Both the position numbers and the translations under genes were made by a program. The notes under the pieces are model-generated. The model did no database searches, was not told the DNA's origin, and was given only the letters and a program-made list of their open reading frames with translations. A stretch of DNA of 39,512 bases from Bacteroidia bacterium (GTDB lineage Bacteria > Bacteroidota > Bacteroidia > Chitinophagales > UBA2359), in NCBI GenBank assembly GCA_030427245.1, contig JAUHXA010000061.1, forward strand, positions 1 through 39,512, written 5' to 3'. Numbering within the stretch: position 1 is the stretch's first letter; each line of letters starts with the position of its first letter. This document shows positions 3,274 through 36,712 of this stretch, piece by piece.

Positions 3274-3322
3274 TACCTTATATTATATTTTTTTTTGAAT
3301 TTTGTCGTCTAATCTTCTTGGT

Positions 3323-4195: not shown

Positions 4196-4218
4196 ATGAG
4201 ATATAAAAAATTCTCTTA

Positions 4219-4261
4219 CCTTATGCTTTATTTCATTCTTCTAAACAGAAGAAGCGTAAGG
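4219..4261 (+). promoter_or_regulatory. Leader hairpin abutting the flippase start codon
   Basis: TTCTTCT (4236-4242) pairs with AGAAGAA (4247-4253) around the loop AAAC. CCTTATGC (4219-4226) pairs with GCGTAAGG (4254-4261) with one mismatch. The structure ends one base before the ATG at 4263. It could act as a weak terminator after the TupA gene or hide the flippase start, but there is no T-tract after it. Confidence 0.5.
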
Positions 4262-4262
4262 C

Positions 4263-5753: not shown

Positions 5754-5781
5754 TTGTCATTAATTATAAAAGAAATCATAC

Positions 5782-6831: not shown

Positions 6832-6867
6832 TTTGATTAGAATCGATTGTCTAAACTTCTATACATT

Positions 6868-7743
6868 ATGAATATCATTACTTTCTTTCAAAAACTAGTG
6901 TTGTTAATCTATAGAATCATTGGAGTCAGTGACAAAAAATATACAGAAACCCAATTTCTGTTCAAGTTTGGTTATGCATTGGATTGGGAAAACCCGAGAG
7001 GGCTTCATGAGAAAACTCATTGGATGAAACTGTATTACCGCAAGCCTTACATGACGAAGCTGGCAGATAAATATGCGGTTAGGGAATTTGTGAAAGAAAA
7101 AATTGGTACGGACTATTTAGTGCCTTTATTTGGTGTGTATGAAAATGTGGGAGAATTGAAAGAAGCACTTCCAAGTTTACCGAATCGGTTTATATTGAAG
7201 GCGACACATGGATGTGGGTGGAATATCATCGTATCTAATAAAGAACAAATTGCTGAGGAAGCTTTCAAAAAATTAACCTTGTGGCTCTCCAAAAATTTTT
7301 TTGAAAGAGGACGAGAATGGGCTTATAAGGATATACCTCCAAAAATTATTTGCGAAGAATTGATTGAGCCGATAAATCCCGAATATGGATTGGTTGATTA
7401 TAAATTTTATTGTTTTGAAGGCGAGCCTTATCACATTCAAGTAGATGTTGGAAGGTATAGCGAACACTGTAGAAATATTTATGATTTAGACTGGGAAAAA
7501 CAAGCTGTTCGAGACGGATTCCCCCATACTTCTAAACCTATTCCAAAACCTAAACACCTGAATGAAATGATAGAGGTGGCTCGTAAATTGAGTGAAGGTA
7601 TGCCTTTTTGTCGAGTGGATTTGTATGCAGAACAAAAGGTGCTTTTCGGCGAAATGACTTTTTATCCAGCGAGTGGTTTGGGAAAGTATGAGCAAGATGC
7701 ATTTAATCAGAAAATAGGAGAGCTGATACCCTTGCCTTTGTAA
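6868..7743 (+). CDS. TupA-like ATP-grasp enzyme, copy 2
   Basis: Protein of 291 residues, paralogous to the gene at 3323-4195, with the same KATHGCGWN and GEMTFYPASG landmarks. Protein identity is very high in the middle and lower at the N-terminus and around GRYSEHCRNIYDLDW. DNA at 7025-7265 is nearly identical to copy 1, while flanking parts are more divergent. The ATG at 6868 is preferred to the TTG at 6847. The 36-bp gap after the previous gene suggests one transcript. It is convergent with the serine hydrolase gene, 12 bp away. The two copies may act on different acceptors, the variable patch being the likely specificity region (inference). Confidence 0.82.
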   Translation: MNIITFFQKLVLLIYRIIGVSDKKYTETQFLFKFGYALDWENPRGLHEKTHWMKLYYRKPYMTKLADKYAVREFVKEKIGTDYLVPLFGVYENVGELKEALPSLPNRFILKATHGCGWNIIVSNKEQIAEEAFKKLTLWLSKNFFERGREWAYKDIPPKIICEELIEPINPEYGLVDYKFYCFEGEPYHIQVDVGRYSEHCRNIYDLDWEKQAVRDGFPHTSKPIPKPKHLNEMIEVARKLSEGMPFCRVDLYAEQKVLFGEMTFYPASGLGKYEQDAFNQKIGELIPLPL

Positions 7744-13702: not shown

Positions 13703-16006
13703 CTACTCAAAAACCTCATACACAACCCCTTCCCAATAAAATTCCACATTATTCCCCAAACTCAAAAACTCCGAAACAGCAGGTTCATTCTCCAACAAAT
13801 CAAAATATTCATCCGAAGCAAAAGCAATGCGTTGGCGTTTGGCATTTTGGTTTTTGGGCGACAGGACTTCCGCATCGACCCAAGAATTGCCTTGATTTTG
13901 ATAGACCGCACGACCTTGAATATTGCGGTATTGATTGGCGATGTCTTCCTTGTCGTCTTTTGAAGCTCCACTGTACATGCGGCTCTGTCCCTGTCGGGTT
14001 TGACCAATGTTAGAAGCCTTGTTGAGCGATTGAATCTCTTGACTGCTGCGAACACTGCTTGCGCCCTCCTTGCGTTTCATGCCACTGTATTCTTCCTCCG
14101 CCATGTCCATATTGCCATTGCGTTGCCAAAAATCGGGCTGTTCAATAGGGCGAGGGCTTGCACGTCCAATGTCTCTGCGGCGCATTTCTTCATCCTCCAA
14201 AATCAAATAACTCGTATAAGGAGTCACAATGCCGTATTCTTTCGCCAAATTCACCACTTCCTCCACCAATTCCTTGTCCTCACCATGCAAGCGGATTTGG
14301 TCGAGTAGATAACCGACTGCCCTTGAAGCCCAAAGCGGTGGAATGAAATCGTGTTTTTCGTGCGTATCATCGGACAAACTCGCCTCGTATTTGAAAGACT
14401 TGCTTTGACCATTCACTTTGCCTGACAACATCACGCTCACATTATCGCTGCCTTTGTTGTCGTATCGCCCCAAAACGGTGACGGACGAACCTCTGAATAA
14501 ATCGGGCAAGTCTTTGGGATAGGTTTGAAAAACGCTGACATTGCGGCTGAAACCCAGCTTCAAATCCGTCAAAACGGGTGAACTGACTTTGGTGTAAAAG
14601 TTGGAAATTTTTACTTCAATGTCTTCGTCGGGCAAGATATAGGAGCGAAAAGCTTTGGTGTGTTCGGTGATTTTGTCGAGCAAATGCGTGTTGATGTCCT
14701 CACCGATTCCAAAGGTGAAAATGCGAGTGTTTTCGCTGTTGTTCTCCTTCAATTTTTTGAGCAAGTCGTCCTCTTCCGTCACGCCAATTGTGGGTTTGCC
14801 GTCTGTAATGAACACCACCATATAAGGGCGGTCTTTGCGGGATTTGGCAGACAAAGCCGTTTCCAAAGCCTCGTCAATATTCGTTCCGCCAATTGCCTTC
14901 AAATCTTCGATAAACGTCCTCGCTTCTGCAATATTTCCCTTGTCGGCAAGCTCCAAATCCTCAAACAAACTCCTTGCTTCGGTCGAAAAACGCACTATAT
15001 TGAAGTGGTCGCCTTTGTTCAAATTATTGACGCAAAACAGCAGTGATTCTTTGGCTTTCTCCAATTTTTCACCCGACATACTGCCCGACACATCCAAGAC
15101 AAAGGTGATGTCTTTCTCTGCAATTTCTTGCTCTTGTTCGGCAATGCCAGGATTGAAGGTCAGTAAAAAGAAACCGTCTTTTTTGCGGGGTTTGAAAGAC
15201 AAAACAGATGCGCCAATCGCTTGATTGTCTGTATTAAAGTACAACTTGAAGTCCATATCGGGCTTCACTTTTGCCGCTTCAAAGCCCACTTTCGCTTGTT
15301 TTGAACCTTTGCGGATAACTTCTACTTCGTGCGTTGGAGAATAGACCGTTTTCAAGTCGCTGTTGGCTTCAATATTGACCAACAAGCTGAGATTCTGCAA
15401 AGGCTTGGCGGAATATTTTTTGGTGTCGAGCGGATAGATGTATTCCATCGTGCCTGCATCCGACTCCAATAATTGCGAGTAGCTGATTTTGATGCGGGTT
15501 TCGCTTCTCGGCTCAATCGGGAAAATCCGCACCTTGAACAATCCTTGCTGACTGTATTCCAACAAAGCAGGGTCACGCATTTGCCGCACGATGTCCTCGT
15601 AAATTTTACGGGCTTTGTCGGCATCCAACAATTCGGCAGGTGTTTCTTTGCCGTTGATGAACATCGAAAAGTCACTCAATGTCGCTCCCTTTGGAATGGG
15701 AAACAAAAAGTAGCCTTCCAATCTTCGATTGTCGGGATTGTAAAACACTTGGTCAATTGCCGTTGTCGCTGCTTGTCCTTCAATGTTTACCCCCACTTTT
15801 TCGGATTTCACTTCCAAAGGGAAAGGATTGACGGGAACGGGTGGGCGGCGGGGCGGAATTGGTGGTCTTGGCGGCATTGGAGGGAAATCGTGGAGGATTG
15901 TCCATCCATCGGTTTTGTGGGTAGCTATCATCAAGCCGCCTGCATGGATTTCATTGAAGGTGGCGAATAGGGTGAGGAGGATTGTTATGAGAATTGGATT
16001 TTTCAT
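13703..16006 (-). CDS. Exported VIT domain plus von Willebrand A domain protein
   Basis: A 767-residue exported protein. The signal peptide is KNPILITILLTLFATF. A proline-rich linker (residues 42-62, PPMPPRPPIPPRRPP) precedes a VIT domain (about 65-185: GYFLFPIPKGATLSDF, ARKIYEDIVRQMRDP). The VWA domain (about 298-470) has a complete metal-ion-dependent adhesion site, DVSGS (305-309), plus FITDGKPTIG. The VIT-VWA pair is that of inter-alpha-trypsin-inhibitor heavy chains; bacterial members probably mediate protein-protein contacts in the envelope. The C-terminal 150 residues are polar and of unclear fold. It is the last gene of the sigma/anti-sigma operon and shares a leader motif with the gene before it. 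Confidence 0.9.
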   Translation of the reverse strand: MKNPILITILLTLFATFNEIHAGGLMIATHKTDGWTILHDFPPMPPRPPIPPRRPPVPVNPFPLEVKSEKVGVNIEGQAATTAIDQVFYNPDNRRLEGYFLFPIPKGATLSDFSMFINGKETPAELLDADKARKIYEDIVRQMRDPALLEYSQQGLFKVRIFPIEPRSETRIKISYSQLLESDAGTMEYIYPLDTKKYSAKPLQNLSLLVNIEANSDLKTVYSPTHEVEVIRKGSKQAKVGFEAAKVKPDMDFKLYFNTDNQAIGASVLSFKPRKKDGFFLLTFNPGIAEQEQEIAEKDITFVLDVSGSMSGEKLEKAKESLLFCVNNLNKGDHFNIVRFSTEARSLFEDLELADKGNIAEARTFIEDLKAIGGTNIDEALETALSAKSRKDRPYMVVFITDGKPTIGVTEEDDLLKKLKENNSENTRIFTFGIGEDINTHLLDKITEHTKAFRSYILPDEDIEVKISNFYTKVSSPVLTDLKLGFSRNVSVFQTYPKDLPDLFRGSSVTVLGRYDNKGSDNVSVMLSGKVNGQSKSFKYEASLSDDTHEKHDFIPPLWASRAVGYLLDQIRLHGEDKELVEEVVNLAKEYGIVTPYTSYLILEDEEMRRRDIGRASPRPIEQPDFWQRNGNMDMAEEEYSGMKRKEGASSVRSSQEIQSLNKASNIGQTRQGQSRMYSGASKDDKEDIANQYRNIQGRAVYQNQGNSWVDAEVLSPKNQNAKRQRIAFASDEYFDLLENEPAVSEFLSLGNNVEFYWEGVVYEVFE

Positions 16007-16033
16007 GTTTGCTTTTTCATAGGACTATCGTCC
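16007..16033 (-). promoter_or_regulatory. Leader with small hairpin and 5-codon upstream ORF (VIT-VWA gene)
   Basis: Read on the minus strand, GGACGATAGTCC (16022-16033) is a short inverted repeat. It is followed by ATG AAA AAG CAA ACA TGA, a five-codon ORF whose stop overlaps the gene's own ATG in the form ATGA. The equivalent arrangement precedes the neighbouring VWA gene. Confidence 0.5.
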
Positions 16034-16062
16034 GAAGTTAGGATAATGAATATATAATGGTG

Positions 16063-16225
16063 TGTCATTCCGAAGGAATCTCGTGGGTAATTATAGTGAA
16101 ATAGGGGCAAGAATAGATACTTTACAAGAACTATTAACTTACCCAATGTAGATTTATTTTTCTCAGAAATTAACTTGCCGTTTTATGTTTGTTGAAACCA
16201 TCCACAAGATTCCTACGGAATGACA
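16063..16225. repeat. Long inverted repeat of the GTCATTCCG type between the two VWA genes
   Basis: TGTCATTCCGAAGGAATCT at 16063-16081 is inverted at 16207-16225 with one mismatch. Each arm is itself partly palindromic. Flanks 16054-16061 (ATAATGGT) and 16227-16234 (ATAACGGT) agree at seven of eight bases, possibly a decayed target duplication. The 125 bp between the arms show no gene. Confidence 0.6.
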
Positions 16226-16249
16226 AATAACGGTAAGTGGTAAAAACGC

Positions 16250-17479
16250 TTACTGCTCCTTAAACTTATAAGACTTCGTCTTGGCTTGTTCTCGAATCGT
16301 ACCAATCATGGCATCGTCCAAAGTGCTTTCGCCTTCGGTAGCCATTTTTGCACGTTCGGCAGCTTCGTATTCTCGGCGTTTTTTGGAGAGTTCTTGGATT
16401 TTGGTTTGTACGTCTTTTCGCTCTTTGGCTTTGGTTTCGATGAAGGCTTTGCGTTCGTCTGTGTCCATTTCTTTCATTTCTTCAGGTAGGGCATCTTCGT
16501 CGAGTTTTTCTACTTCAACGGCTTCTTCCTCTACGGCATCAATCAAATCCCAATCGGAGTTTTTGTAGGCTGCGGAAGATTTGGACATGGCTCTTTGGGC
16601 GACATTGGCGGTGCTGTATTGGGCGGCATTGCTGTCTTGAATCATTTGACGTTCTTTTTTGGCTTTGCCTTTGCTGCCGTAGCCGATGTAGGTGTCGTTG
16701 AGTTTGTTATTCAATTCACCAATTTCTTTGTCATAGGGCGTTTCGATGTGAACGACTGCTTCGTTTTGGTTGATGTTGATGTATTTTCCATCTGCCAAAT
16801 CGGCTCCGTCTTTCCAGTTGGTGCGAATGCCTTCTTCGTAGTCGCCGCAGAAAATGGTGTTGATGATGATGCCATTTTCGATGGCAGCTTTACAGGATTT
16901 TTTGTAGTCCACGTTTCCTTGTGTGAAAGGTTCGTTTCCTGCAATGAAGATGATTTTGAGGTCGTTGTTGCTGTCGCTCCATTGAAGGTCTTTGGTGGCG
17001 GTTTGAATGACATGACCACAGTATTCTTCGCCCCCATAGGTTGTCATTGCAAACAGCTTTTCGGAAACCAAATCGAGGTCGGTGGTCATGGGCGCAACTT
17101 GGCGAATGTAACCGTCTCTGCTTGATAATCCATCGTTTCCGTATTCATATAGAGCGATTTGGAGGTTGGGAACATTGCCCTCTTGATCTTTGGCGAGGGC
17201 GAGTTCATTGACCATTTTCCAAAGTTGGGATTTGGCTTGGTCGATGAGTCCGTCCATGCTGTTGCTGGTGTCTAATAGTAGGGCAACTTGTATGTTGCTT
17301 TCTCCATCGTTTTTGAGGACGACGGGTTTGGCGTTGAATTCCATCAATGGGGTTTTGATGTCTGTTTTGGGTGGTTTGTGGTAGTCGTCGTTGCCATTGA
17401 AGTCAATTTGGATATTGATGTTGGTCATGCTGACTACTGCAATGAGTACGAGGGCTGAGAGCAAAAGTAATTTTTTCAT
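16250..17479 (-). CDS. Exported von Willebrand A domain protein
   Basis: A 409-residue protein starting at the ATG at 17479; this start gives a clean signal peptide (KKLLLLSALVLIAVVS), while longer versions would run into the upstream gene. The VWA domain spans about residues 64-260 with an intact MIDAS, DTSNS (70-74). The second half is charged and helical (EEEAVEVEKLDEDALPEEM, then EKTKAKERK-like stretches around 330-400), probably a coiled coil. It follows the anti-sigma gene by 64 bp. With the VIT-VWA gene it forms the output of the sigma operon; role likely envelope-associated, ligand unknown. Confidence 0.82.
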   Translation of the reverse strand: MKKLLLLSALVLIAVVSMTNINIQIDFNGNDDYHKPPKTDIKTPLMEFNAKPVVLKNDGESNIQVALLLDTSNSMDGLIDQAKSQLWKMVNELALAKDQEGNVPNLQIALYEYGNDGLSSRDGYIRQVAPMTTDLDLVSEKLFAMTTYGGEEYCGHVIQTATKDLQWSDSNNDLKIIFIAGNEPFTQGNVDYKKSCKAAIENGIIINTIFCGDYEEGIRTNWKDGADLADGKYININQNEAVVHIETPYDKEIGELNNKLNDTYIGYGSKGKAKKERQMIQDSNAAQYSTANVAQRAMSKSSAAYKNSDWDLIDAVEEEAVEVEKLDEDALPEEMKEMDTDERKAFIETKAKERKDVQTKIQELSKKRREYEAAERAKMATEGESTLDDAMIGTIREQAKTKSYKFKEQ

Positions 17480-17510
17480 GATTTTGGGGTTTTCATAGGA
17501 CTGTCGTCCT
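17480..17510 (-). promoter_or_regulatory. Leader with small hairpin and 6-codon upstream ORF (VWA gene)
   Basis: On the minus strand, AGGACGACAGTCCT (17497-17510) is an inverted repeat followed directly by ATG AAA ACC CCA AAA TCA TGA. That TGA overlaps the gene's ATG as ATGA. The 18-19 nt of hairpin plus first codons match the leader at 16013-16033 except for one base. Confidence 0.5.
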
Positions 17511-17543
17511 GTGTTATGATATATCGCTCCGTTGGAGCTTGTA

Positions 17544-18992
17544 CTATTCTTTATACATGATGAGTTGCTTGGTGATGGGTCTGTCTTCCTCTTGTCCTTC
17601 AAAAGTGATTTGCAGCATGGTGTCGGTTGATAGGCGATAGGTGATTTTTGAAGGAAACTCAACTCTATCATTTTCAAGAACTAATTCTTTTTTGTTAGAA
17701 ACGTTGTTTTCGTTTCTTTGTGTAAAAACAGTTGGATAGGTGAATTTCTGAGGAAAATCCATAACATAAATCAATTTCCCCTGTCTGCTGCTTATACTAA
17801 ATTCTTCTTCAAAAACCACAACACCATTTGATAAGGTTTTAGCAATTCCTTGTAAGGAGCCGTTGCTATTCATTGTCCATTTTTCAGTATAGGTTAAGCT
17901 ATCTAAGTTGTAAATCCAGTTTCCTTCTAGGGTTCTTAGAAAGTCAATATAAGGCATACCTTCTTGAATAAACAACTCTTCCTTTGAAGCCGAATCTTTT
18001 TTGGTGGTATCTCGGTTAGGGCTGCTTTTAGTTTTCTTTTTTTGGCTGCCTGCTTTCGCAGATTCTAATTCTAAGGTACTTTGTGACAATCTTTCGTCTC
18101 CGTACCTATCATAAGGCAACATATTGCTGAAATTACTTGTCTGAAAATCGGCATTGTAGCGGGCATAGGCGTAAACTCCATCGGTATCGGTGATATCGAA
18201 TGTAGCTTTTACTTTGGGCGTTGCAGCTTTTGCAGTAGCTTCTCTGCTTTTATAGGCTGTTATACTTACTTCATCCAATGTTTCTCCAGCATCATCTGCC
18301 TCCATTTCCATTACTTCTTCTTCTATTGCTATGTCTGCATCGGCAGTCATTGAAGGCTTGCTTGGAGGATTAGGTCTTGTCGCTTTTAAGCTTCTGTCTT
18401 TGCTTGAAGGAATGGGAGTAGCTGCAACAGGATTGGGCGTTTCTATGCTTCGTGTTTTGTTCTGTTGATTGTTGTTGTTGTTGAAGGATTTAGTAGGTTT
18501 TGAAGTGTAGGCTGATTTGTCTTTGGTTCTTATGGTTTCATTTGCTGCAATGATTTTTTCTTCTGATGCTGTTTCCTTCTTTTCTACTCTTGCAGTTCTT
18601 TCAGTGCTTTTCAAATCCCCTTCTCTTTCACTATCCATTACGATTGCTTCGGCACTTTCAGTATCTCTACCAGAATCTTTTGTAGTTGCACGACTATTTC
18701 CAATTGCTTCTGTTTCGTCATACATAGCGGGTTGTTCCATTGCCAAATCACTTGATTTGGTAGGCGCATTGTTCATCAAATATATTGCAGGAATGAGCAT
18801 CACCAAAATCATTGCAGCGGCAGCGACATAGCGGAGCCAATGGACCTTCTTTTTGGCTTGGGAGTTTTCTTCCCACATTGAAGGTGTGGCATCCAGCTTT
18901 TCTTCAAGGCGCTCCCACAGTTTGTCGGAGGGCATCTTGTCGAATTGATGCTGGTTGTCGTTGAATAATTTGTCTATATCTTTGAGGTTCAT
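17544..18992 (-). CDS. Membrane-spanning anti-sigma-like protein with DUF6265-like lipocalin-type C-terminus
   Basis: A 482-residue single-pass protein. The N-terminal cytoplasmic part, with DKMPSDKLWERLEEKLD, is a common feature of Bacteroidota proteins encoded after ECF sigma factors. One membrane helix lies at about 52-73 (WLRYVAAAAMILVMLIPAIY). A long low-complexity linker (about 75-330) rich in Ser, Thr, Glu and Lys follows. The C-terminal 120 residues (FLRTLEGNWIYNLDSLTYTEKW ... LVLENDRVEFPSKITYRL) look like a DUF6265-type small beta-barrel facing the periplasm. The zinc-finger HxxxCxxC of classical anti-sigma factors is absent, so sigma binding is inferred from position. It follows the sigma gene across a 40-bp tandem repeat. 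Confidence 0.7.
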   Translation of the reverse strand: MNLKDIDKLFNDNQHQFDKMPSDKLWERLEEKLDATPSMWEENSQAKKKVHWLRYVAAAAMILVMLIPAIYLMNNAPTKSSDLAMEQPAMYDETEAIGNSRATTKDSGRDTESAEAIVMDSEREGDLKSTERTARVEKKETASEEKIIAANETIRTKDKSAYTSKPTKSFNNNNNQQNKTRSIETPNPVAATPIPSSKDRSLKATRPNPPSKPSMTADADIAIEEEVMEMEADDAGETLDEVSITAYKSREATAKAATPKVKATFDITDTDGVYAYARYNADFQTSNFSNMLPYDRYGDERLSQSTLELESAKAGSQKKKTKSSPNRDTTKKDSASKEELFIQEGMPYIDFLRTLEGNWIYNLDSLTYTEKWTMNSNGSLQGIAKTLSNGVVVFEEEFSISSRQGKLIYVMDFPQKFTYPTVFTQRNENNVSNKKELVLENDRVEFPSKITYRLSTDTMLQITFEGQEEDRPITKQLIMYKE

Positions 18993-19020
18993 TTTTCTAT
19001 ATTGTTACATTGCTGTATTG

Positions 19021-19140
19021 TTCTGTGGTTGAATTGTTTTATGGCTGTATTGTTTTATTGCTATATGGTTAAATTGTTTTATGGCTATATTGCTGTATTG
19101 CTATATGGTTAAATTGTTTTATGGCTGTATTGCTGCATTG
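19021..19140. repeat. Three 40-bp tandem repeats between sigma and anti-sigma genes
   Basis: Units 19021-19060, 19061-19100 and 19101-19140 share the word GGTTRAATTGTTTTATGGCT at the same offset. Units 2 and 3 differ at two positions. A partial unit precedes them from 18996. Downstream, 19148-19202 carries degenerate inverted copies (AACCATTCAACCATT), so the transcript could fold extensively. No spacers of CRISPR type. Confidence 0.8.
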
Positions 19141-19202
19141 TTAGGCAAAACAGTATAGCCATTCAGCCATTTAACAGTAAAACCATTCAACCATTCAACC
19201 AT

Positions 19203-19748
19203 TTACGCCACCCGATACTCACTATTTGCCTGCAATAAATCCTTCAACATCTTTCGAGCTTTAATGAGTTGTGATTTGGAGGTATTGATGCTGATTTTGA
19301 GCATATCTGCAATTTCTCGGTGTTTGTAGCCTTCAATGGCGTACAAATTGAAGACGGTGCGATAGCCATCTGGCAGTTCGTCCAACAACTTCAATATGTC
19401 CGCTTCCTGCAAGTCGTCTTGTGCCTTGGCGGCTGTCGGTACTTCTACTTCTCGGTCACTCAATTCGACGTAGAGGGTACTCACCCGCTTTTTTTTTCGC
19501 AAAAACATCAGGGCTTCGTTCACCACAATTCGGCGTATCCAACCTTCAAAACTTCCTTTGTTTTCAAACTTGTGAATGTTGGCGAATACTTTGTAAAAGG
19601 CGTTCAACAAGGTGTCTTCTACATCTACTTCGTTGTGGACATACCTCCGACACACCCCAAACATTTTGGCGGCATAGCGTTCGTATAATACTCGCTGTGC
19701 TTTTCGGTTGCCTTTTTTACAGGCTGCTATGAGTTGTGTTTCGGTCAA
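19203..19748 (-). CDS. ECF-type RNA polymerase sigma factor
   Basis: A 181-residue sigma-70 family protein of ECF size. Region 2 covers about residues 16-88, including DVEDTLLNAFYKVFANI (core binding and -10 recognition) and GWIRRIVVNEALMFLRKKK. Region 4 covers about 115-170, with the HTH YKHREIADMLKISINTSKSQ. No extra regulatory domain is present. The genes for a membrane anti-sigma-like protein and two VWA proteins follow on the same strand, the usual arrangement of a sigma factor controlled by its downstream membrane partner. A transposon-like palindrome lies just upstream at 19801-19942. Confidence 0.93.
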   Translation of the reverse strand: MTETQLIAACKKGNRKAQRVLYERYAAKMFGVCRRYVHNEVDVEDTLLNAFYKVFANIHKFENKGSFEGWIRRIVVNEALMFLRKKKRVSTLYVELSDREVEVPTAAKAQDDLQEADILKLLDELPDGYRTVFNLYAIEGYKHREIADMLKISINTSKSQLIKARKMLKDLLQANSEYRVA

Positions 19749-29646: not shown

Positions 29647-30384
29647 TTACTTCTTCAATGCTGCCTTACTAAAAATATACTCAGGAATATCCACATCAAA
29701 TTCAATGGATTTAACAATAAAATCCGTTCCTTTACCCGACTTCAAAACATCCTTGAAGTTCGTCTTTTGAGGATACCATCTGCCGCCCATTTTGACCACA
29801 TCACTCATCGTTGTTCGCTTCAAAAGCTGCCCGCTTTTGGCATACATTTCTTCCTTCAAAGGAATAAAACGCTCTTGGTCGACCCACATTTTCAATTTCT
29901 GATAATTCACATCCTCCACTTTAGCCTTCAATTCCAAAATCCACGTTTTTCGACCATCGACTACTTCATCTCCAATGACCTTAGGCGTGTACATTTCCGA
30001 CAATTTTCGGTCTTCCATCGCATCTTCATACGACAAATCCGAACCCATCACCGACTGTCGAAGCATGTGACCCGACAACTGAATCGTTCTATCCGATGAA
30101 GGTGAATAAATCCACAGTTTGTCCTCCAACTTCAACATTTTTGTACCCTTTTCTCTATCGGGAGCAAGGTATTCGGTAAAGGACTTTTTGTGCCCTTCTG
30201 CATAGCCTCTCGATACCACCGTTCGGCTGTTTCGGCGACCATATATGACCATTTCCGATTCGGTAATGCTCGTTTTAGATACCATATTGGCATCTACTTT
30301 TTGAAGGATTTCGGCTGCATCGGGTGCAGGAAAATTGAAGGAAATCAATCCGAAGCAAAATATTGCAGAAATTAAGTATTTCAT
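29647..30384 (-). CDS. LolA-like outer-membrane lipoprotein-sorting protein
   Basis: A 245-residue exported protein starting at ATG 30384, which gives the signal peptide KYLISAIFCFGLISF. The mature part matches the LolA-like family annotated as outer-membrane lipoprotein-sorting protein: YLAPDREKGTKMLKLEDKLWIYSP, then SYEDAMEDRKLSE and WVDQERFIPLKEEMYAKSGQ. These periplasmic half-barrels carry a lipidic ligand in a hydrophobic cavity. It is the last gene of the run that contains an ABC ATPase, two FtsX permeases and an outer-membrane barrel, so it is a good candidate for the soluble carrier of that system. It lies 186 bp after the oxygenase gene; that gap holds the inverted repeat at 30460-30533. 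Confidence 0.85.
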   Translation of the reverse strand: MKYLISAIFCFGLISFNFPAPDAAEILQKVDANMVSKTSITESEMVIYGRRNSRTVVSRGYAEGHKKSFTEYLAPDREKGTKMLKLEDKLWIYSPSSDRTIQLSGHMLRQSVMGSDLSYEDAMEDRKLSEMYTPKVIGDEVVDGRKTWILELKAKVEDVNYQKLKMWVDQERFIPLKEEMYAKSGQLLKRTTMSDVVKMGGRWYPQKTNFKDVLKSGKGTDFIVKSIEFDVDIPEYIFSKAALKK

Positions 30385-30459
30385 GTTCTTACGATTTGTT
30401 TTTTTTGAATTTTTATACAATTATTTGACTTTCAAAAAAGTGAGAAGTTTGCTTTTCAA

Positions 30460-30533
30460 TCACAAATCAAATATCATAAATCGTAAATCATACATCCACT
30501 TTTAGTGCAAGATATATGAGGTTTGATTTGTGA
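30460..30533. repeat. Imperfect inverted repeat between LolA-like and oxygenase genes
   Basis: TCACAAATCAAA (30460-30471) is perfectly inverted at 30522-30533, with weaker pairing continuing inwards (ATATCATA against TATATGAG). Related words (GAAGTTTG.TTTT) recur on both flanks. No coding content. Confidence 0.55.
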
Positions 30534-30570
30534 AGTTTGATTTTGGATTTTAGTCCATCCACCCCACCAA

Positions 30571-31122
30571 TCACTTCTCCTTCCTTCGATACATCACATC
30601 CGTCCGCAAAACATACTTTATCCCTTCAATCACAGGACAACCTTCATGCACCAATTCATGCCTAAAAATCAGAGCCTTTCCCGTTTTGGGCTGAATCGAA
30701 CAGTTCATAAATCGGGTTTCGCCCCCTTTCATATCTTCATTCAGATAAACCATGAAGGTGAAAGAACTCCATTCGTGAATATTGCGAATATAGCTGCCAT
30801 CTTGATGAAGTTTGAACTGCTGACCGGGAAAGTATTTGTAAAACCGAAACTTTTCGTTCAGTCCAAGTGCTTTGCCATAAGCCGTTTCGGGAGGCACAAA
30901 CTCCTTGATGCGTTCCCATAGTTCTTCGGCTAATTCTACGCTGTCGTAAATGAACCTTTCGTTGTTCCGAACCGATTGATTGAGGACTTGCTGCCCGCCC
31001 ATATTGACCTTTGCATCTTCATAGCCCTCCTCTTCGCTGAATTGAATCCAACGTTTACTTTCTTCTTCAGTCATAAAGTTATCGACCGTAAAAATACCGT
31101 TTGAAACTACTGTGAATTTCAT
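30571..31122 (-). CDS. Prolyl-4-hydroxylase-like 2-oxoglutarate/Fe(II) oxygenase
   Basis: A 183-residue double-stranded beta-helix dioxygenase. The iron triad is His106 and Asp108 in KLHQDGS, with His159 in HELVHEG; Arg173 in YVLRTD should bind the 2-oxoglutarate carboxylate. RFYKYFPGQQF and FMVYLNEDMKGGETRF are the usual core strands of the P4H group. No signal peptide, so it is probably cytoplasmic; the substrate (protein side chain or small molecule) is unknown. The ATG at 31122 is preferred to the in-frame ATG at 31140 because the latter lies in a mobile element inserted at 31130. Before that insertion the gene stood 12 bp from the FtsX gene upstream. Confidence 0.85.
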   Translation of the reverse strand: MKFTVVSNGIFTVDNFMTEEESKRWIQFSEEEGYEDAKVNMGGQQVLNQSVRNNERFIYDSVELAEELWERIKEFVPPETAYGKALGLNEKFRFYKYFPGQQFKLHQDGSYIRNIHEWSSFTFMVYLNEDMKGGETRFMNCSIQPKTGKALIFRHELVHEGCPVIEGIKYVLRTDVMYRRKEK

Positions 31123-31407
31123 ATTTTTTGAGTGTGTCACAAATCGGTTGTCAGAATTTGTCTCTTACATAAGCTGCCCTGAAAGGGCATTATCAATAGC
31201 GTAGGGCAAAGTTTACGAAGCCCTACGAGATTAATTGAGTAATACATTTAGCCCTGAAAGGGCGAGATAATAAAATATTTTGAATGCTTGCGCCCTTTCA
31301 GGGCTAACGAAATCTTTTTACATGCCGTAGGGCTTCCGCCCTACGCTATTGCTTAAACCCCGTTGGGGTTACTATTGCAACCGATTTGTGACACACTCAT
31401 ATTTTTT
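31121..31407. mobile_element. MITE-like element (31130-31398) with 9-bp target duplication, inserted at a start codon
   Basis: The element is 269 bp. Its first 21 bp (31130-31150, beginning GAGTGTGTCACA) are perfectly inverted at 31378-31398. ATATTTTTT flanks it at 31121-31129 and 31399-31407. Inside are three GCCCTGAAAGGGC-type palindromes (31176-31188, 31251-31263, 31292-31304), two pairs of CGTAGGGC/GCCCTACG (around 31200-31227 and 31326-31345) and the hairpin AACCCCGTTGGGGTT. No protein is encoded. The left duplication overlaps the oxygenase ATG. Confidence 0.85.
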
Positions 31408-31412
31408 CATTA

Positions 31413-32687
31413 TTAAACCTCCAACTCCTTAAACAAACTCGCTGTTTCCCGCTTATAAATCCCCAAACCTGAAAGCATCGTACCCAAAACCATTGCCGCC
31501 AAACCAGGAATAAAGCCAATGTAAAACAATTCAGGCGTGATTTTGGCACGAACCACCGAAGGCATCAACATACTCGAATTTTCCATGTAGCTGCTGATGT
31601 CAATTCCATAAACCTGCATATAGTAAGCCAAGCCCAATCCGATAACCGTTCCGACAATCGAACCAATAATCCCAATCAAAACCGCTTCCATAATCAAAGC
31701 CCTATAAATCGTGCCTTTCGCTTCACCCAAAGCCAGACGAATCCCAAACTCCTTGTACCTCCGCAAACCCGCCAACAAGCCCGTATTCCAAAGAACCACA
31801 GACATTGCAGCGATAAACATAAACACAAAAAGCCCCGACATCACATCCGCATAATCCAACAAATCCGCCAAATTGTTTTGCTGTTTGAGGGTTTTCATCA
31901 CAGGCGCAAATTCGTCGGGGTCATTGGCGTATTTGGCATTGAAGGCATCCGCAACTTCAAGCGCTTTTTCGTTGTCGTAAACTTTGCTTTTCAAAAAGCC
32001 CAAAACCTCACCCGTTCCATCTTCCATATCCAACATTTGCTGTGCATCCGAAATGTCAATCACCATAGCCCCTTTGTCCATTGCAGCCATTCCATAGCGA
32101 ATCGTACCACTGATTTTGAAGCTTTGCAGGCTCATGCTGCCGTTCATGGTCGTTCCAAAATAGGTGACTTCATCGCCAATTTTTAGCTCCAATTTTTCAG
32201 CAAAATCATGTCCCAACAAAGCTTCCCCTTGTTCGTCAGGCAATTCACCCGTCACGATAGAAGTCGTGATGTTCATTCTTTCGGCTTCGCCACTATTTTT
32301 GTTCAACAAATTAATCGCCAATCCAGCAGCAGGGCCTTGTCCTCTTGAATTGCCTTCGGCATCAGGTACGTCAATCAGCCCTCCAAAACGAGTGCGTTTG
32401 ACCCAATCCATCTGTGGAAAATCCTTTTCGAGTGTTTCTATCAAACTGCCCACTTCAAGGAGTGCCAAATCGTTGGGTAGTTGGTCGATGTTTTCGGCAT
32501 AAGCCCTCGTCATGACCTTGGCATGTCCTGTGTCAAAACGGGCATTTTGGTCGGTCACATCGCCCATCATGCCCTTCATATAGCCACTCAGCAAAACGGT
32601 CAATGCCACTCCAATGCTGATAATGATGATGGGCAAAATGCTACGGCTTTTATCTCGCAAGATGCCTTTTAATAGGAATTTTAGCAT
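31413..32687 (-). CDS. FtsX-like ABC permease, second of two
   Basis: A 424-residue MacB/LolC-type permease: one N-terminal membrane helix (about 18-38), a periplasmic domain of about 220 residues, then three helices (about 283-305, 330-355, 385-412). The conserved FtsX segment GLRRYKEFGIRLALGEAKG contacts the ATPase. No ATPase domain is fused. With the permease at 32812 it probably forms a heterodimer, as LolC/LolE do, driven by the ATPase at 34047. Such transporters extract or shuttle lipids and lipoproteins mechanically rather than passing solutes. The oxygenase gene originally followed directly; a mobile element now separates them. Confidence 0.88.
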   Translation of the reverse strand: MLKFLLKGILRDKSRSILPIIIISIGVALTVLLSGYMKGMMGDVTDQNARFDTGHAKVMTRAYAENIDQLPNDLALLEVGSLIETLEKDFPQMDWVKRTRFGGLIDVPDAEGNSRGQGPAAGLAINLLNKNSGEAERMNITTSIVTGELPDEQGEALLGHDFAEKLELKIGDEVTYFGTTMNGSMSLQSFKISGTIRYGMAAMDKGAMVIDISDAQQMLDMEDGTGEVLGFLKSKVYDNEKALEVADAFNAKYANDPDEFAPVMKTLKQQNNLADLLDYADVMSGLFVFMFIAAMSVVLWNTGLLAGLRRYKEFGIRLALGEAKGTIYRALIMEAVLIGIIGSIVGTVIGLGLAYYMQVYGIDISSYMENSSMLMPSVVRAKITPELFYIGFIPGLAAMVLGTMLSGLGIYKRETASLFKELEV

Positions 32688-32702
32688 GTTTATTTAGTTT
32701 AG

Positions 32703-32814
32703 AAGTAAGATGAAAGAAGTAGGAAGTAGGATATTGGAGGGGATAAGAAAATACAGGAAAATCCTCTTACCTCTTGCTTCTCACAGTGAAAACGGTCTTG
32801 CTTCCTGCTTCTCA
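32703..32814. repeat. GAAGCAGGAAGCAAGA-family repeat between the two permease genes
   Basis: Minus-strand TGAGAAGCAGGAAGCAAGA (32796-32814) includes the stop codon of the upstream permease. A related word GAGAAGCAAGAGGTAAG follows at about 32766-32782, and plus-strand GAAGTAGGAAGTAGG near 32716-32730 forms the opposing arm. The gap between the two genes consists of this imperfect inverted repeat. Confidence 0.55.
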
Positions 32815-33975
32815 TTGCAGCTTCCCCTTCAATGCTTCCACAGGGTTCATCGTCGAAATTTTCTTTGCAGGCAAATAACTCACAATCGTTGCGGAAAGCA
32901 CCACCAAAAGCATTGTCCCCACGATAAGCGTCAGACCATAAACAGGATAAATGACCTCCGAAATGGCAATTCCCATGTCCTGCGAAGTGGAAGCAGCAGG
33001 CAAAGCAATGCCCGTTTTTGCCAACCAAACGAAAAGTGGAATCCCGATAATGCAGCCTACAATCGTTGCAAAAATGCTGTACATACTGCCTTCAACCGTA
33101 AAAATACCAACAACTTGCGGGCGAGTCATGCCCAACGCAATGTAAGTGCCGATTTCTTTTTGCCGCCTAAAAACAGATAAAACCTGTGTGTCAAAAATCG
33201 CCAACAGCGCAATCGCTAAAAGCATGAGATACATGATTGAACCGCTGGCTTTTTTCATTGAGATGATGTCATTGATATCTCTCAAAAGTTCCTCTTGACT
33301 TTTGTAAGTCCAATCACCTGCATTTTTGGCTTCAAAATTTTCGTTGGCAATCAATATAGTAGCGTGATTCTGCAAACCCGTCATTTGCCAAAGTTGGTCA
33401 ATTCCTATCCAAATTTGCCCCTTATCGACCATCGGCACATCGGTATCAAACACTTTGACAATCGTGATATTGGAGGCATCAAAAGTGCCGTTTTTGTCTC
33501 GCCATCTGAGTAAAACTTCATCTCCTTCCTTCAATTTGGCAGACTCCGCCATCCCTTCTCCAATCATTACAGGAATATTCGCCTCACTATCCTTCAAGCT
33601 TGCAGTCGGCAATTCGAGTGTTGTCTGTGCGAGGTCTATGCCTTTCAAGGCAACGGACAACATGCGTCCTTCTGGATAAATCGAAGCTTGTCGAATCAAA
33701 ATAGGTGTAGTGGTTTTCGCCAATTCTGCGCCAAATTCTCCATGTCCGTCTTGAAGGGTGAAAGGGTCAAAAGGGTCGTAGTCTTTGTGCAACAATTGAC
33801 CATTTCCGTATTCCCAAGCTATGCTGTCCGTTTTGGCTTGTTGATGCCAACCGTCCAACATTCCATTGAAGAAAATGATGAGAATGAAAGCAAAGGACAA
33901 TACACCGACATTGAGCCAAGTCCGAAGACCTGCTCCTATCAAGTTTTTGTATGCTAATTGGAAAGCTAATTTCAT
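32812..33975 (-). CDS. FtsX-like ABC permease, first of two
   Basis: A 387-residue permease of the same architecture as its neighbour: an N-terminal helix (WLNVGVLSFAFILIIFFNG, about 20-38), a periplasmic domain with Ig/sandwich-like length, then three C-terminal helices. The ATPase-coupling motif is VFRRQKEIGTYIALGMTRPQVVG; the C-terminus PAKKISTMNPVEALKG is a signature of the LolC/MacB permease family. It is adjacent to the ATPase gene upstream (34047). Its stop codon lies inside a repeat. Expected to sit in the inner membrane as half of a heterodimer. Confidence 0.88.
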   Translation of the reverse strand: MKLAFQLAYKNLIGAGLRTWLNVGVLSFAFILIIFFNGMLDGWHQQAKTDSIAWEYGNGQLLHKDYDPFDPFTLQDGHGEFGAELAKTTTPILIRQASIYPEGRMLSVALKGIDLAQTTLELPTASLKDSEANIPVMIGEGMAESAKLKEGDEVLLRWRDKNGTFDASNITIVKVFDTDVPMVDKGQIWIGIDQLWQMTGLQNHATILIANENFEAKNAGDWTYKSQEELLRDINDIISMKKASGSIMYLMLLAIALLAIFDTQVLSVFRRQKEIGTYIALGMTRPQVVGIFTVEGSMYSIFATIVGCIIGIPLFVWLAKTGIALPAASTSQDMGIAISEVIYPVYGLTLIVGTMLLVVLSATIVSYLPAKKISTMNPVEALKGKLQ

Positions 33976-34008
33976 TTTTGTGTTGTTTTTTTGAGAAGTA
34001 AGAAATAG

Positions 34009-34067
34009 GAGGCAGGAAGCAAGATTTATATACTACTTCTTTCGTCCTACTTCTTGCTTCCTGCCTC
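34009..34067. repeat. Hairpin repeat that encodes the end of the ABC ATPase
   Basis: GAGGCAGGAAGCAAGA (34009-34024) is perfectly inverted at 34052-34067. The right arm, read on the minus strand, is the codons for Glu-Ala-Gly-Ser-Lys-Lys at the ATPase C-terminus, and the ATPase stop (34047-34049) lies in the 27-nt loop. Same repeat family as at 32796-32814 and inside the element at 39231-39385. Confidence 0.7.
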
Positions 34068-34751
34068 TAATTGAAGTTCATCCTCTTCCACTTTCCCATC
34101 CCTCAAATGCACAATTCTATCCAAATATTTCATCACTTTTTCGTCATGGGTAGAAAACAAAAAAGTAGTGTCCAACTCTTGGTTCAATCGCTTCATAATC
34201 TTCAAAATAATGTGGGCATTTTCGGCATCCAAATTGGCGGTTGGTTCATCTGCCAATAGGATTTGAGGACGTTTCACAATCGCCCTTGCAATCGCCACTC
34301 GTTGACCTTCTCCACCCGAAAGTTTGTCTGGTTTTTTCTGCGCCAACTTGGTCAGCCCTACCCATTCCAAGGCTTCCATGACCATTGTTTTGCGCTTGGC
34401 TTCGGGAATGTTTTGCAGTAAAAGGGCAAACTCTACGTTTTCGTAAACGGTGTAAACAGGCAGCAGATTGAAGACCTGAAAAATGAACCCGATGTGGAGG
34501 TTTCGCAACATTGCCGATTCTTTGTGCGACAATTTGGAGATGTTTTTTCCCATCACTGTTGCCGTTCCTTCGGTTGGGCTATCCAGCGAGCCGATGATGT
34601 TCAGCAAAGTGGTTTTACCCGAGCCACTTGGTCCTACAAATCCTGCAAATTCTCCTTTTTTGAATTCGAGATTGATGTCGCTCAATGCCGTGAACTCACC
34701 TTCTCCCATGGGAAAACGCTTGACGATGTTTTTCAGTGAAATGATACTCAT
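34047..34751 (-). CDS. ABC transporter ATP-binding protein of the LolD/MacB type
   Basis: A 234-residue single ATPase domain. Walker A is GPSGSGKT (40-47), the Q-loop IFQVFNLLP, the signature LSGGEGQR (usually LSGGQQQR, but this variant is common in the family), Walker B ILLADEPTANLD and the switch His in FLFSTHDE. All catalytic elements are intact, so it should power the two FtsX permeases encoded just downstream. It follows the outer-membrane barrel gene by 123 bp; that spacer has degenerate GTATCAAC-type repeats only. The last six residues are encoded by an intergenic repeat. Confidence 0.93.
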   Translation of the reverse strand: MSIISLKNIVKRFPMGEGEFTALSDINLEFKKGEFAGFVGPSGSGKTTLLNIIGSLDSPTEGTATVMGKNISKLSHKESAMLRNLHIGFIFQVFNLLPVYTVYENVEFALLLQNIPEAKRKTMVMEALEWVGLTKLAQKKPDKLSGGEGQRVAIARAIVKRPQILLADEPTANLDAENAHIILKIMKRLNQELDTTFLFSTHDEKVMKYLDRIVHLRDGKVEEDELQLEAGSKK

Positions 34752-34874
34752 AGATGCTTTTTGATACTTGGTTGATACTTTTGATTCTGTTGATGCTTTG
34801 GGTTCTGTTGTTTCTTAGTTGATGCTGTTGATACTTTTATCAGTGAACATCTGTGTCATCTCAAACATCTGTGA

Positions 34875-36038
34875 TTAATGATTATACACCAACATTACCC
34901 TCAATCCAGGTCCTGCAAATTGATTCACCAAATCGTTTTGTTGAATACCTGATTGAGTAGTAGGCGTATAAGAAGTGATGACATAGCCCGTTATTTTTTT
35001 GAATTGATGCTCGTAATTAATGGCGAAAGTGACATCGTTTGAGTCCCAATTGAAGGTAAAAACAGAGCTTAAATTGTCGAAAAAACCAAGCGGATAAGCG
35101 ATTGCAGCAGCAGTGATATTTCCTGTATTATTAAACTGCAATGCTTTTTCATCGAAAGTTATGACCAAATGTTCGACGACTACATTGAGTCCGTTGCCGA
35201 TGCCAAAGGTGTAATCTGCTCCAATGTTGAACAGAGCTTGATTGGTAAGGATTCCGAGATTTTTGGTTTTGTTTATCAGTGCTCCTTCAAACCACAAGCC
35301 TACACCAATGTCCCATTTTCCATCAATGCCGATTCTATTTTCTGGTATTTTTTCGTGTTCTGGCACAGAAGTCAAGTTTGTAGAGTTCTTAGAGGAGGCG
35401 GTTCGGTGGTGATAGGATAGGGCGATTTCTCCCTTTGAAGTCGGATACTGTATGCGTCCCCCAAATTCTGGTACTTTCTTGTTTGTTCCTATCACATCAA
35501 AGCCCCTCGTTTTTTCGTTTCCATACAATCCCCACAACCAGATATTGGCATTGTTCAAAAAGTAGTAACGTCCCAAAATTCCATAAACGCCATTGGTCAA
35601 TTGAAGTGGGTCACGAGGGTCGATTTGGTTAAACCATTGAATAGGGCGGAGGATGGTCGCTGCGCCAAAGTCAATTTTCTGCAATCCTACTCTGATTTCC
35701 AGTTGTTTGCTGGTGTATCTTGCCCAAATTCTATAGGGCTGAATATCTACATCGGTGGTGTTGGTTTTGAAGGAGTTGGAGGAAATGGAGCCGGTCATAT
35801 TCACCGAAGCTTCAAAATCAATGGATTTAGCTTTGGCAGAATCCAATGGGATTTGATAGCTCAGTTCGGGTATGTAACGTGCGCCCAAAAATACATCTGT
35901 TTCGTTATCAGGCGCAAAGCTGCCAATTAGCGAAACTTGTCCGTCGAGTTCTACTTTGTTTTGTGCCAATCCATTGAAGGAAAGGAGCAATAGTAGAAAA
36001 CAAAGCAAATGTATTGTAGCATAAAATGAAGATTTCAT
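34875..36038 (-). CDS. Outer-membrane beta-barrel protein (porin-like)
   Basis: A 387-residue exported protein with signal peptide SSFYATIHLLCFLLLLLSFNGLAQ. The mature part is a series of alternating amphipathic strands ending in GLRVMLVYNH, with aromatic girdle residues (YRIWARYT, IWLWGLYG), as expected for a barrel of some 16 strands. I do not recognise a specific porin family; the DPRDPLQLTNGVYGILGRYYF segment recalls channel-type proteins annotated with transporter operons. It is first in the run barrel, ATPase, permease, permease and stands immediately after the TetR gene. A role as outer-membrane partner of the transporter is inferred from position. Confidence 0.7.
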   Translation of the reverse strand: MKSSFYATIHLLCFLLLLLSFNGLAQNKVELDGQVSLIGSFAPDNETDVFLGARYIPELSYQIPLDSAKAKSIDFEASVNMTGSISSNSFKTNTTDVDIQPYRIWARYTSKQLEIRVGLQKIDFGAATILRPIQWFNQIDPRDPLQLTNGVYGILGRYYFLNNANIWLWGLYGNEKTRGFDVIGTNKKVPEFGGRIQYPTSKGEIALSYHHRTASSKNSTNLTSVPEHEKIPENRIGIDGKWDIGVGLWFEGALINKTKNLGILTNQALFNIGADYTFGIGNGLNVVVEHLVITFDEKALQFNNTGNITAAAIAYPLGFFDNLSSVFTFNWDSNDVTFAINYEHQFKKITGYVITSYTPTTQSGIQQNDLVNQFAGPGLRVMLVYNH

Positions 36039-36058
36039 AGTCCTTCGTGTTTCGTTTT

Positions 36059-36096
36059 TTATCGCAGGATAGGGTTTAAACCCTATCCTGCGATAA
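36059..36096. repeat. Perfect 38-bp palindrome between TetR and barrel genes
   Basis: TTATCGCAGGATAGGGTTT (36059-36077) is followed immediately by its exact complement, with no loop. It could extrude as a cruciform or fold in RNA. No T-run follows on either strand, so a classical terminator is doubtful. It lies in the 5' leader region of the barrel gene (ATG 36038), 16 bp past the TetR stop. Confidence 0.8.
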
Positions 36097-36112
36097 GATT
36101 GTCATTCCCATC

Positions 36113-36712
36113 TTACTTTTTATTCATTGGAGATATGCCATAAAAACAGAATTTGGTCAAGTCCATGATTAAATCAATTGGACTGTCATACATAGCCATC
36201 AATGCCTTGTCTTGCATTTTTTCATTCATTGAGTTGATGATATAGATGACAAAATCAATTTTCAGGTCTTTTCTAATCCATCCATCTTGCTGTGCCTTTT
36301 CCAAGTCCTTTTTGAGTTCCCTCATGGTTCGCTGTCGGTATTCAGCTATTTTATTTTGCAGGTTGGCGTGATTGTATTCATAAATATCATTTACAAACTC
36401 TTGGCTAATGCCGTTTGAGGCTTGATGTTTGAGTTCGATGATTTGAGTGACCTTATCGGGAAACGGAATTTCTTGGCGCATGATGTTTTGGTAATCTTCA
36501 AACCCTTTATTTGCCAAGTTCACTAATACTTGTTCGGCTACTTCATTTTTATTTTTGAAGTTGCGGTAGAAAGTCATCTTGCTCACCCCTGCTTCTTTGC
36601 AGATTTCTTCAACGGTAACTTTTCGGATGCCATATTTCCAAAAGAGCGTTTTGGCACTTTGGGTGATGGCAGTCCAACTTTTGCTTCGTTTTGTATTTGC
36701 TGTATTACTCAT
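36113..36712 (-). CDS. TetR/AcrR family transcriptional regulator
   Basis: A 199-residue repressor-type protein. The N-terminal HTH occupies about residues 32-52 (VTVEEICKEAGVSKMTFYRN), with the typical preceding helix AKTLFWKYGIRK. The C-terminal ligand domain is helical and unlike any subgroup I can name. It is the first gene before the barrel/ABC/FtsX run on the same strand, and a palindrome at 36733-36768 next to its start suggests autoregulation. The ligand may be an envelope-stress compound or lipid (inference). Confidence 0.92.
   Translation of the reverse strand: MSNTANTKRSKSWTAITQSAKTLFWKYGIRKVTVEEICKEAGVSKMTFYRNFKNKNEVAEQVLVNLANKGFEDYQNIMRQEIPFPDKVTQIIELKHQASNGISQEFVNDIYEYNHANLQNKIAEYRQRTMRELKKDLEKAQQDGWIRKDLKIDFVIYIINSMNEKMQDKALMAMYDSPIDLIMDLTKFCFYGISPMNKK

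Follow-up and report, generated by a model that had tools for sequence, protein, structure and literature searches.

A conserved gene unit of ABC transporter, LolA-fold carrier and outer-membrane barrel in Bacteroidota as a probable export route for a lipophile

The passage of lipophiles through the aqueous periplasm is so far only partly understood. A row of genes in a Bacteroidia genome (assembly GCA_030427245.1; Chitinophagales, UBA2359) raises the question whether it encodes such a passage. The row lies on contig JAUHXA010000061.1, of which positions 1 to 39,512 were analysed and are called the window here. Seven genes, all on the minus strand, span positions 29647-36712 in the order TetR-type regulator, outer-membrane beta-barrel, LolD-like ATPase of an ATP-binding cassette (ABC) transporter, permeases 1 and 2, Fe(II)/2-oxoglutarate oxygenase and LolA-like carrier (Table 1). 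The original prediction, made from the sequence alone, had placed every named gene on one strand and had labelled the TetR regulator, the LolD-like ATPase, the two FtsX permeases, the oxygenase and the LolA-like carrier by family; the coordinates and the Pfam and NCBIfam scans agree with it. We found that barrel, ATPase, the two permeases and carrier are one conserved unit. These five core genes probably form one shuttle-type export route for a lipophile, leading from a type-VII ABC transporter via a LolA-fold carrier to the barrel.

Two samples were used to follow the conservation of the row. The presence of the barrel, permease 2, the oxygenase and the carrier family PF17131 was searched for in 296 genomes of the phylum, and the neighbourhood was compared in 16 relatives, namely 10 other barrel-bearing genomes, three named loci (Membranihabitans marinus and metagenome-assembled genomes of Owenweeksia and of Ignavibacteriaceae), a pair of Persicobacter plasmids and another genome from the same order. 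In the searches for the barrel, for permease 2 and for the second barrel type described below, scoring was limited to a handful of candidates in each genome (6 of up to 37). The barrel was present in 11 of the 296 genomes, across seven families, and close relatives of permease 2 (E ≤ 1.3e-132) were found in precisely these 11 genomes, the next-best match having an E-value of 1.2e-27. The five core genes are grouped in all 16 relatives and follow the window's order in 15 of them; in the exception, L018, the carrier gene lies upstream of TetR. The predicted grouping of the barrel, the ABC genes and the LolA-like carrier was supported both by presence in the same genomes and by neighbourhood. Over 12 loci, the distances between barrels correlate with those between the ABC and carrier genes (r 0.73-0.75; 0 of 2000 permutations).

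The ATPase has its best NCBIfam match in TIGR02211 (LolD) with 236.9 bits and misses the curated cut-off of 307.75; both permeases are nearest to lolCE (TIGR02212) with 44.1 and 53.6 bits, and miss the curated cut-off of 362.45. When profiles were compared with solved structures, permease 1 matched LolF (E 2.5e-12) and LolC (E 1.3e-8), and permease 2 matched LolF (E 9e-10), MacB (E 4e-8) and LolE (E 9e-5). Permeases of the type-VII ABC class have four membrane segments; a crude hydropathy scan gave four for permease 2 and five for permease 1. Among the ten window genes scanned, Pfam listed neither an HlyD-type adaptor or TolC nor an MCE or Mla domain. Of the predicted 'Lol- or Mla-style' route, the Lol-like mechanics fit; for the Mla style, no MCE or Mla domain was listed in the operon proteins. 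With Mla/MCE systems the window shares, in concept, an ABC transporter, a periplasmic carrier and an outer-membrane part; with MacAB-TolC it shares the MacB_PCD/FtsX permease fold but differs in having a separate ATPase and two permeases. Since the matching domains are not listed among the ten genes, identity with either system was rejected.

The carrier matches PF17131 at 202.5 bits (gathering score 30) over profile positions 2-184 of 184, and had no PF03548 (LolA family) match up to E 1 in Pfam. Against the NCBI LolA3 family NF053579 it reached 21.9 bits, below the curated score of 83, and its profile matched the Porphyromonas gingivalis LolA3 structure 9tp6 with an E-value of 1.6e-22. The predicted local distance difference test (pLDDT) of the AlphaFold2 models was 86.5 for the best of five and 52.9 for the worst. 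The model aligned with the solved PF17131/DUF1329-type structures 4z48 (Z 26.2), 9tp6 (25.4), 3bk5 (25.2) and 3buu (24.9), compared with Z 13.0 for Escherichia coli LolA and about 13 for LolB. As modelled, the carrier is a LolA fold, that is, an open half-barrel. Its start resembles a signal peptide by eye only, and the crude hydropathy scan did not flag a segment there.

The barrel had been predicted to belong to no recognised family and to be perhaps the most informative part, and both remarks proved apt. Pfam assigned no family to the window barrel (one hit with E 0.14, under its cut-off) and none better than E 0.06 to 14 barrel members (sole hit DUF1367, E 0.064); DUF1302 was absent from all 14. 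A PDB sequence search found no relative up to E 1, and a PHROGs search no match. The N-terminus is a hydrophobic helix, signal-peptide-like by eye. The AlphaFold2 model (14 sequences, pLDDT 82.8) has 18 strands, with a long conserved stretch at residues 121-150 between strands 5 and 6, of which the part 131-150 has a pLDDT of only 56-70. Foldseek ranked OmpC/OmpF-type porins first (template modelling score about 0.5); upon realignment with VIA-align the model matched OccK2 of the OprD family (Z 23.6) and AlgE (Z 22.1) over some 300 residues at 6-13% identity. By strand number and whole-barrel match the predicted structure is an 18-strand barrel like OprD and AlgE, a likeness of fold only. Neither Omp85 nor FadL was among the barrel-type structures in the best 50 realigned matches, which does not by itself exclude kinship with Omp85.

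We infer that these genes act jointly. The LolD-like ATPase would power the two FtsX/LolC-E-like permeases, which, judging from the type-VII ABC class, would lift the lipophile from the outer leaflet of the inner membrane. The PF17131 protein, with its modelled half-barrel, would shield the lipophile and carry it across the periplasm. The barrel, as its linkage suggests, may replace LolB as the receiver at the outer membrane, either inserting the lipophile there or freeing it outside. The TetR protein probably controls expression of the row. Linkage of this kind assigns PF17131 carriers a likely partner in both membranes; for the receiving end it points to a barrel family that matches nothing in Pfam.

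To our knowledge, no cargo has been demonstrated for PF17131 proteins, which are named 'outer membrane lipoprotein-sorting protein'. PF17131 was above its cut-off in 117 of the 296 genomes. We surveyed the neighbourhoods of 128 such genes besides the window's (E < 1e-30), 11 of them from window-type relatives, for an energiser (ABC or resistance-nodulation-division, RND) and a barrel, both encoded on the strand of the PF17131 gene and no more than 6.5 kb away. Both were found at 98 of the 128 genes, 84 with ABC permeases and 14 with RND/MMPL pumps alone; an RND gene is also close by in two of the 84. For this survey, profiles of barrel, RND pump, permease and carrier were hand-seeded from the neighbours seen and searched within the neighbourhood stretches only, and the seeds are counted. 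The less biased test is a whole-genome search, made for the second barrel type only and with at most 6 candidates scored per genome. It gave 72 hits in 69 genomes, all of which have a PF17131 gene; this gene is no farther than 10 kb away for 67 hits and on another contig for the remaining five.

The barrels of the survey fall into the window type, the second type, which goes with ABC permeases, and an RND type. In profile comparison the window type matched the second type with E 8e-11 and the RND type with E 7e-7, and the second type matched the RND type with E 1.5e-19; a single RND-type barrel matched the window-type profile with E 0.006. A control, L069:10038-11255, barrel-like by eye, gave E 3e-5 with the second-type profile and 0.05 with that of the window type, so that E-values near 1e-5 are unsafe in this comparison. 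DUF1302 was above its cut-off in two of four RND-type barrels and in none of the four second-type barrels scanned; because the control reached 3e-5, kinship between the window type and DUF1302 is plausible, not proven. The L171/L174 protein was dropped as a further barrel control, being a peptidase S58.

The survey suggests that carrier and barrel are what stays constant. More tentatively, and as a possibility to be taken seriously, we propose a general class of shuttle-type exporters beside the tunnel-type tripartite pumps, in which an exchangeable inner-membrane energiser (type-VII ABC or RND/MMPL) would load a PF17131 carrier and the carrier would unload into a dedicated barrel from one divergent superfamily. 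Carrier and barrel would be the constant part of this class, and the window would hold a branch whose barrels form a family of their own, without Pfam match.

Some loci of the survey deserve mention in their own right. Seven genomes of one genus (L088, L199, L200, L201, L204, L205 and L206) have a form with a single permease. In five of these seven loci a ketoacyl synthase and two short-chain dehydrogenase/reductase (SDR) genes share the gene row, labelled by Pfam in L088 and by similarity to L088 in the other loci. A chalcone-synthase/KAS III-like gene is likewise present in five of the seven. Such neighbours might lead to the cargo. Locus L022 (1-9714) holds two systems with different barrel types in tandem on one strand, the carriers adjoining; the barrel of the second system is cut by the contig end.

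Several published layouts resemble that of the window. The Borrelia cluster BBJ23-29 unites a MacB/LolE-like ABC transporter, a LolA-like protein and an outer-membrane barrel, with a non-polar ligand (PMC13078400). Its barrel is reported to be of Omp85 type, its permease is homodimeric, two TPR proteins belong to it and the phylum is another one, whereas the window has two permeases and a barrel modelled as 18-strand and OprD/AlgE-like. The Ame system of Castellaniella combines a DUF1302 barrel and a DUF1329 periplasmic protein of the LolA superfamily with an inner-membrane RND pump (PMC6394551); the window has an ABC transporter instead, and the DUF1302 profile finds no match in its barrel. 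In Porphyromonas and Prevotella, operons with a TetR gene, an MMPL pump and an 'outer membrane lipoprotein-sorting protein' show strong induction under iron starvation (PMC10434189). These operons share with the window the regulator, a pump, a carrier of that name and a hypothetical protein, within Bacteroidota, but differ in having an MMPL pump together with ABC ATP-binding proteins. Their carrier is presumably a PF17131 protein and their hypothetical protein presumably a barrel; no cargo was seen for these operons either. Among the matches listed from the open-licence literature, no description of an ABC-PF17131-barrel unit in Bacteroidota was recognised, nor a statement that carrier and barrel are the constant part, which is weak evidence of absence. 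Barrel type, the presence of two permeases and the phylum set the window unit apart from the similar known layouts.

Among the closest known systems is the Lol machinery itself (LolABCDE; LolDF), with which the unit shares a type-VII ABC transporter, a LolD-like ATPase and a LolA-fold carrier. It differs in the outer-membrane barrel of the row, where no LolB was seen (LolB and LolD were not sought in the genome), in a carrier of PF17131 rather than PF03548, in the missed lolCE and LolD cut-offs and in being patchy and headed by TetR. The unit could nevertheless be an accessory Lol pathway, in which particular lipoproteins would be extracted by the ABC transporter, shuttled by the carrier and finally inserted or surface-exposed by the barrel. 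The closeness of permeases, ATPase and carrier to Lol parts speaks for this, as does the naming of lipoproteins as possible cargo of the Borrelia cluster by its authors (PMC13078400). In addition, no permease in the genome is above the lolCE cut-off: even the best LolC/E-like gene, on contig C144, stays below 362.45 with 227.7 bits. This gene nevertheless scores far above the window permeases, and the genome also has a PF03548 LolA match on contig C99, away from the operon. Together with the cut-offs missed by the window genes, these genes elsewhere make the accessory pathway unlikely. Two further points argue against it: P. gingivalis LolA3, which shares the carrier's fold family, binds LolB weakly (PMC13103446), and the pair of carrier and barrel occurs with RND pumps too.

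Of the conceivable cargoes of the proposed export route, a small lipophile or lipid is likelier than lipoproteins as a whole. The PF03548 LolA and the better LolC/E-like permeases elsewhere in the genome hint at a non-lipoprotein cargo; further hints are that an RND/MMPL pump can serve as energiser and that ketoacyl synthase and SDR genes stand in the rows of one genus. The linkage suggests that P. gingivalis LolA3, too, with its weak binding of LolB, serves cargo other than that of the Lol route. In Flavobacterium johnsoniae, deletion of a gene likewise named lolA3 left gliding and amylase secretion unaffected (PMC11885536).

A lipophile handled by the unit might also be foreign. The row would then encode a TetR-derepressed detoxification or solvent-efflux pump for foreign amphiphiles instead of a route for the cell's own lipids. 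A TetR gene at the head of the row would fit such a pump, and so would the patchy barrel: among the 40 genomes of the search of close relatives, it was found in the window's own and in one more, and none of the 19 other members of the genome's family had it. The Ame RND system is tied to monoterpene metabolism (PMC6394551), and an MMPL+LolA-like protein and a porin-like neighbour are induced on a C28 alkane (PMC6304351). The regulator itself is, however, not constant. A clearly similar TetR (30-50% identity, about 180-200 amino acids) lies directly upstream of the barrel in 6 of the 16 relatives (L015, L016, L018, L224, L225 and L226). In three others (L021, L022 and L024) the similarity is weak, and in seven none was seen, two of these (L023 and L027) being cut by contig ends. 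Moreover, the ketoacyl synthase genes in the row suggest, for one genus, a product of the cell's own metabolism. We consider the efflux pump possible, yet clearly less probable than export of a lipophile along the proposed route.

Apart from the low score of the genome's own best LolC/E-like gene, a number of observations weigh against the proposed export route. The overlap of barrel and permease 2 would arise by chance with a probability of 3e-20 if the genomes were independent, a value that is too strong because they are related. Correlated distances are expected from shared descent too, and the distances agree better among the ABC genes (0.84-0.92) than between barrel and ABC genes (0.73-0.75). 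Identity to the window in L023 and L026 is 62-64% for the permeases but only 34-35% for the barrel. In view of this divergence and the poorer distance fit, barrels are perhaps exchanged or fast-evolving. As few candidates were scored per genome, unlinked divergent copies might have escaped the searches. In the window itself, an inserted element and the oxygenase gene interrupt the junction of permease and carrier. As for the survey, seven of the 128 PF17131 genes have an energiser (four ABC, three RND) and no detected barrel; five of these seven genomes (G104, G196, G215, G275 and G070) have a second-type barrel elsewhere or farther away. Another 23 genes have neither a labelled energiser nor a barrel nearby. 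They comprise 22 of the loci L171-L198 and L135, which is only a 3.7-kb contig, and belong to the families f24 (17), f22 (5) and f43 (1). A stand-alone PF17131 group exists, because no pump-barrel pair was labelled in the ten of these loci that were mapped.

The oxygenase had been predicted to modify the cargo or a component. It has an HxD motif at residue 106, and the hydropathy scan flagged no hydrophobic segment in it. In favour of its membership, it is encoded on the same strand and, prior to insertion of the element, was separated from permease 2 by 12 bp; this former gap, which had also been predicted, results when the element (269 bp) is removed together with a single 9-bp copy of its target. 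It adjoins the system, however, in none of the 16 relatives. The co-occurrence of six genes in Bacteroidota that had been suggested as a check is therefore found for the barrel, the ABC genes and the carrier, which adjoin each other, and not for the oxygenase. The gene is present in 11 of the 296 genomes, and only three of these have the system: the window's own, G034 and G131. In the latter two, oxygenase and system lie on different contigs. At L024 an overlap filter could have hidden an oxygenase, and the whole-genome search of its genome, G097, found none. The oxygenase was therefore rejected as a conserved part of the system. It looks like a lineage-specific neighbour, a passenger, and that it belongs to the system and modifies cargo or a component is very improbable.

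The inserted element ends in GAGTGTG...CACACTC, has inverted arms at 31129-31150 and 31378-31399 and is flanked by 9-bp target copies, AAAAAATAT, at 31121-31129 and 31399-31407. The list of open reading frames (ORFs) contains none of at least 100 amino acids within the element. It has 16 matching stretches in the genome, 12 of them outside the window at seven places (best 87%, query 9-277), and one other copy has a 9-bp flanking repeat of its own, TTTAAAATC. The element behaves like a miniature inverted-repeat transposable element (MITE), a mobile repeat outside the transport unit.

On the two Persicobacter plasmids (L224, 1.58 Mb; L225, 1.07 Mb) the set runs TetR-barrel-ATPase-permease-permease-carrier. 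In the window, the palindrome predicted beside the TetR gene is there and perfect over 38 bp, but its role as a private operator of this operon is doubtful, because copies are dispersed: at up to three mismatches its core occurs at five places in the genome, compared with none for the reversed control pattern. A variant in which the palindrome is the TetR operator of the operon and of a small regulon would draw on its perfect symmetry and on the position of the four other copies (L220-L223) near the 5' ends of ORFs, some of which start signal-peptide-like by eye. The copy L222 has matched changes in both arms, and L223 one matched pair and one unmatched change. Besides the dispersal, the RNA hairpin is strong (z-score -7.0) and scored terminator-like on the plus strand, and among 223 loci the 10-base core is confined to those of this genome. 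An operator is hence an improbable explanation of the palindrome. Promoter and terminator scans of the region gave no excess over shuffled sequences (11 vs 15.2 and 8 vs 6.4).

Table 1. Features of the gene row and their positions in the window
Feature	Position	Strand	Basis
TetR/AcrR-type regulator, 199 aa, heads row	36113..36712	-	TetR_N E 2.5e-13 (Pfam)
Perfect 38-bp palindrome between TetR and barrel genes	36059..36096		19-nt arms, no spacer
Outer-membrane beta-barrel (predicted), 387 aa	34875..36038	-	AlphaFold2 model; no Pfam family
LolD-like ABC ATPase, 234 aa	34047..34751	-	ABC_tran E 5e-35 (Pfam)
Permease 1, FtsX, type-VII ABC class	32812..33975	-	FtsX E 9e-14 (Pfam)
Permease 2, FtsX and MacB_PCD	31413..32687	-	FtsX E 2e-15, MacB_PCD E 1.6e-9
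MITE-like element, 269 bp	31130..31398		Inverted arms and 9-bp target duplication
Fe(II)/2-oxoglutarate oxygenase, 183 aa	30571..31122	-	PF13640 (2OG-FeII_Oxy_3) E 6e-12
LolA-like carrier, PF17131, 245 aa	29647..30384	-	PF17131 E 6e-60 (Pfam)

Two other loci of the window were noted. At 3302-7743 four genes stand in a row, two for TupA-like ATP-grasp proteins, one for a sugar-transfer-associated ATP-grasp protein and one without Pfam match; this is perhaps a surface-polymer locus. At 13703-19748 a gene for an extracytoplasmic function (ECF) sigma factor lies near genes for VIT/VWA, VWA and DUF6265 proteins, all on one strand.

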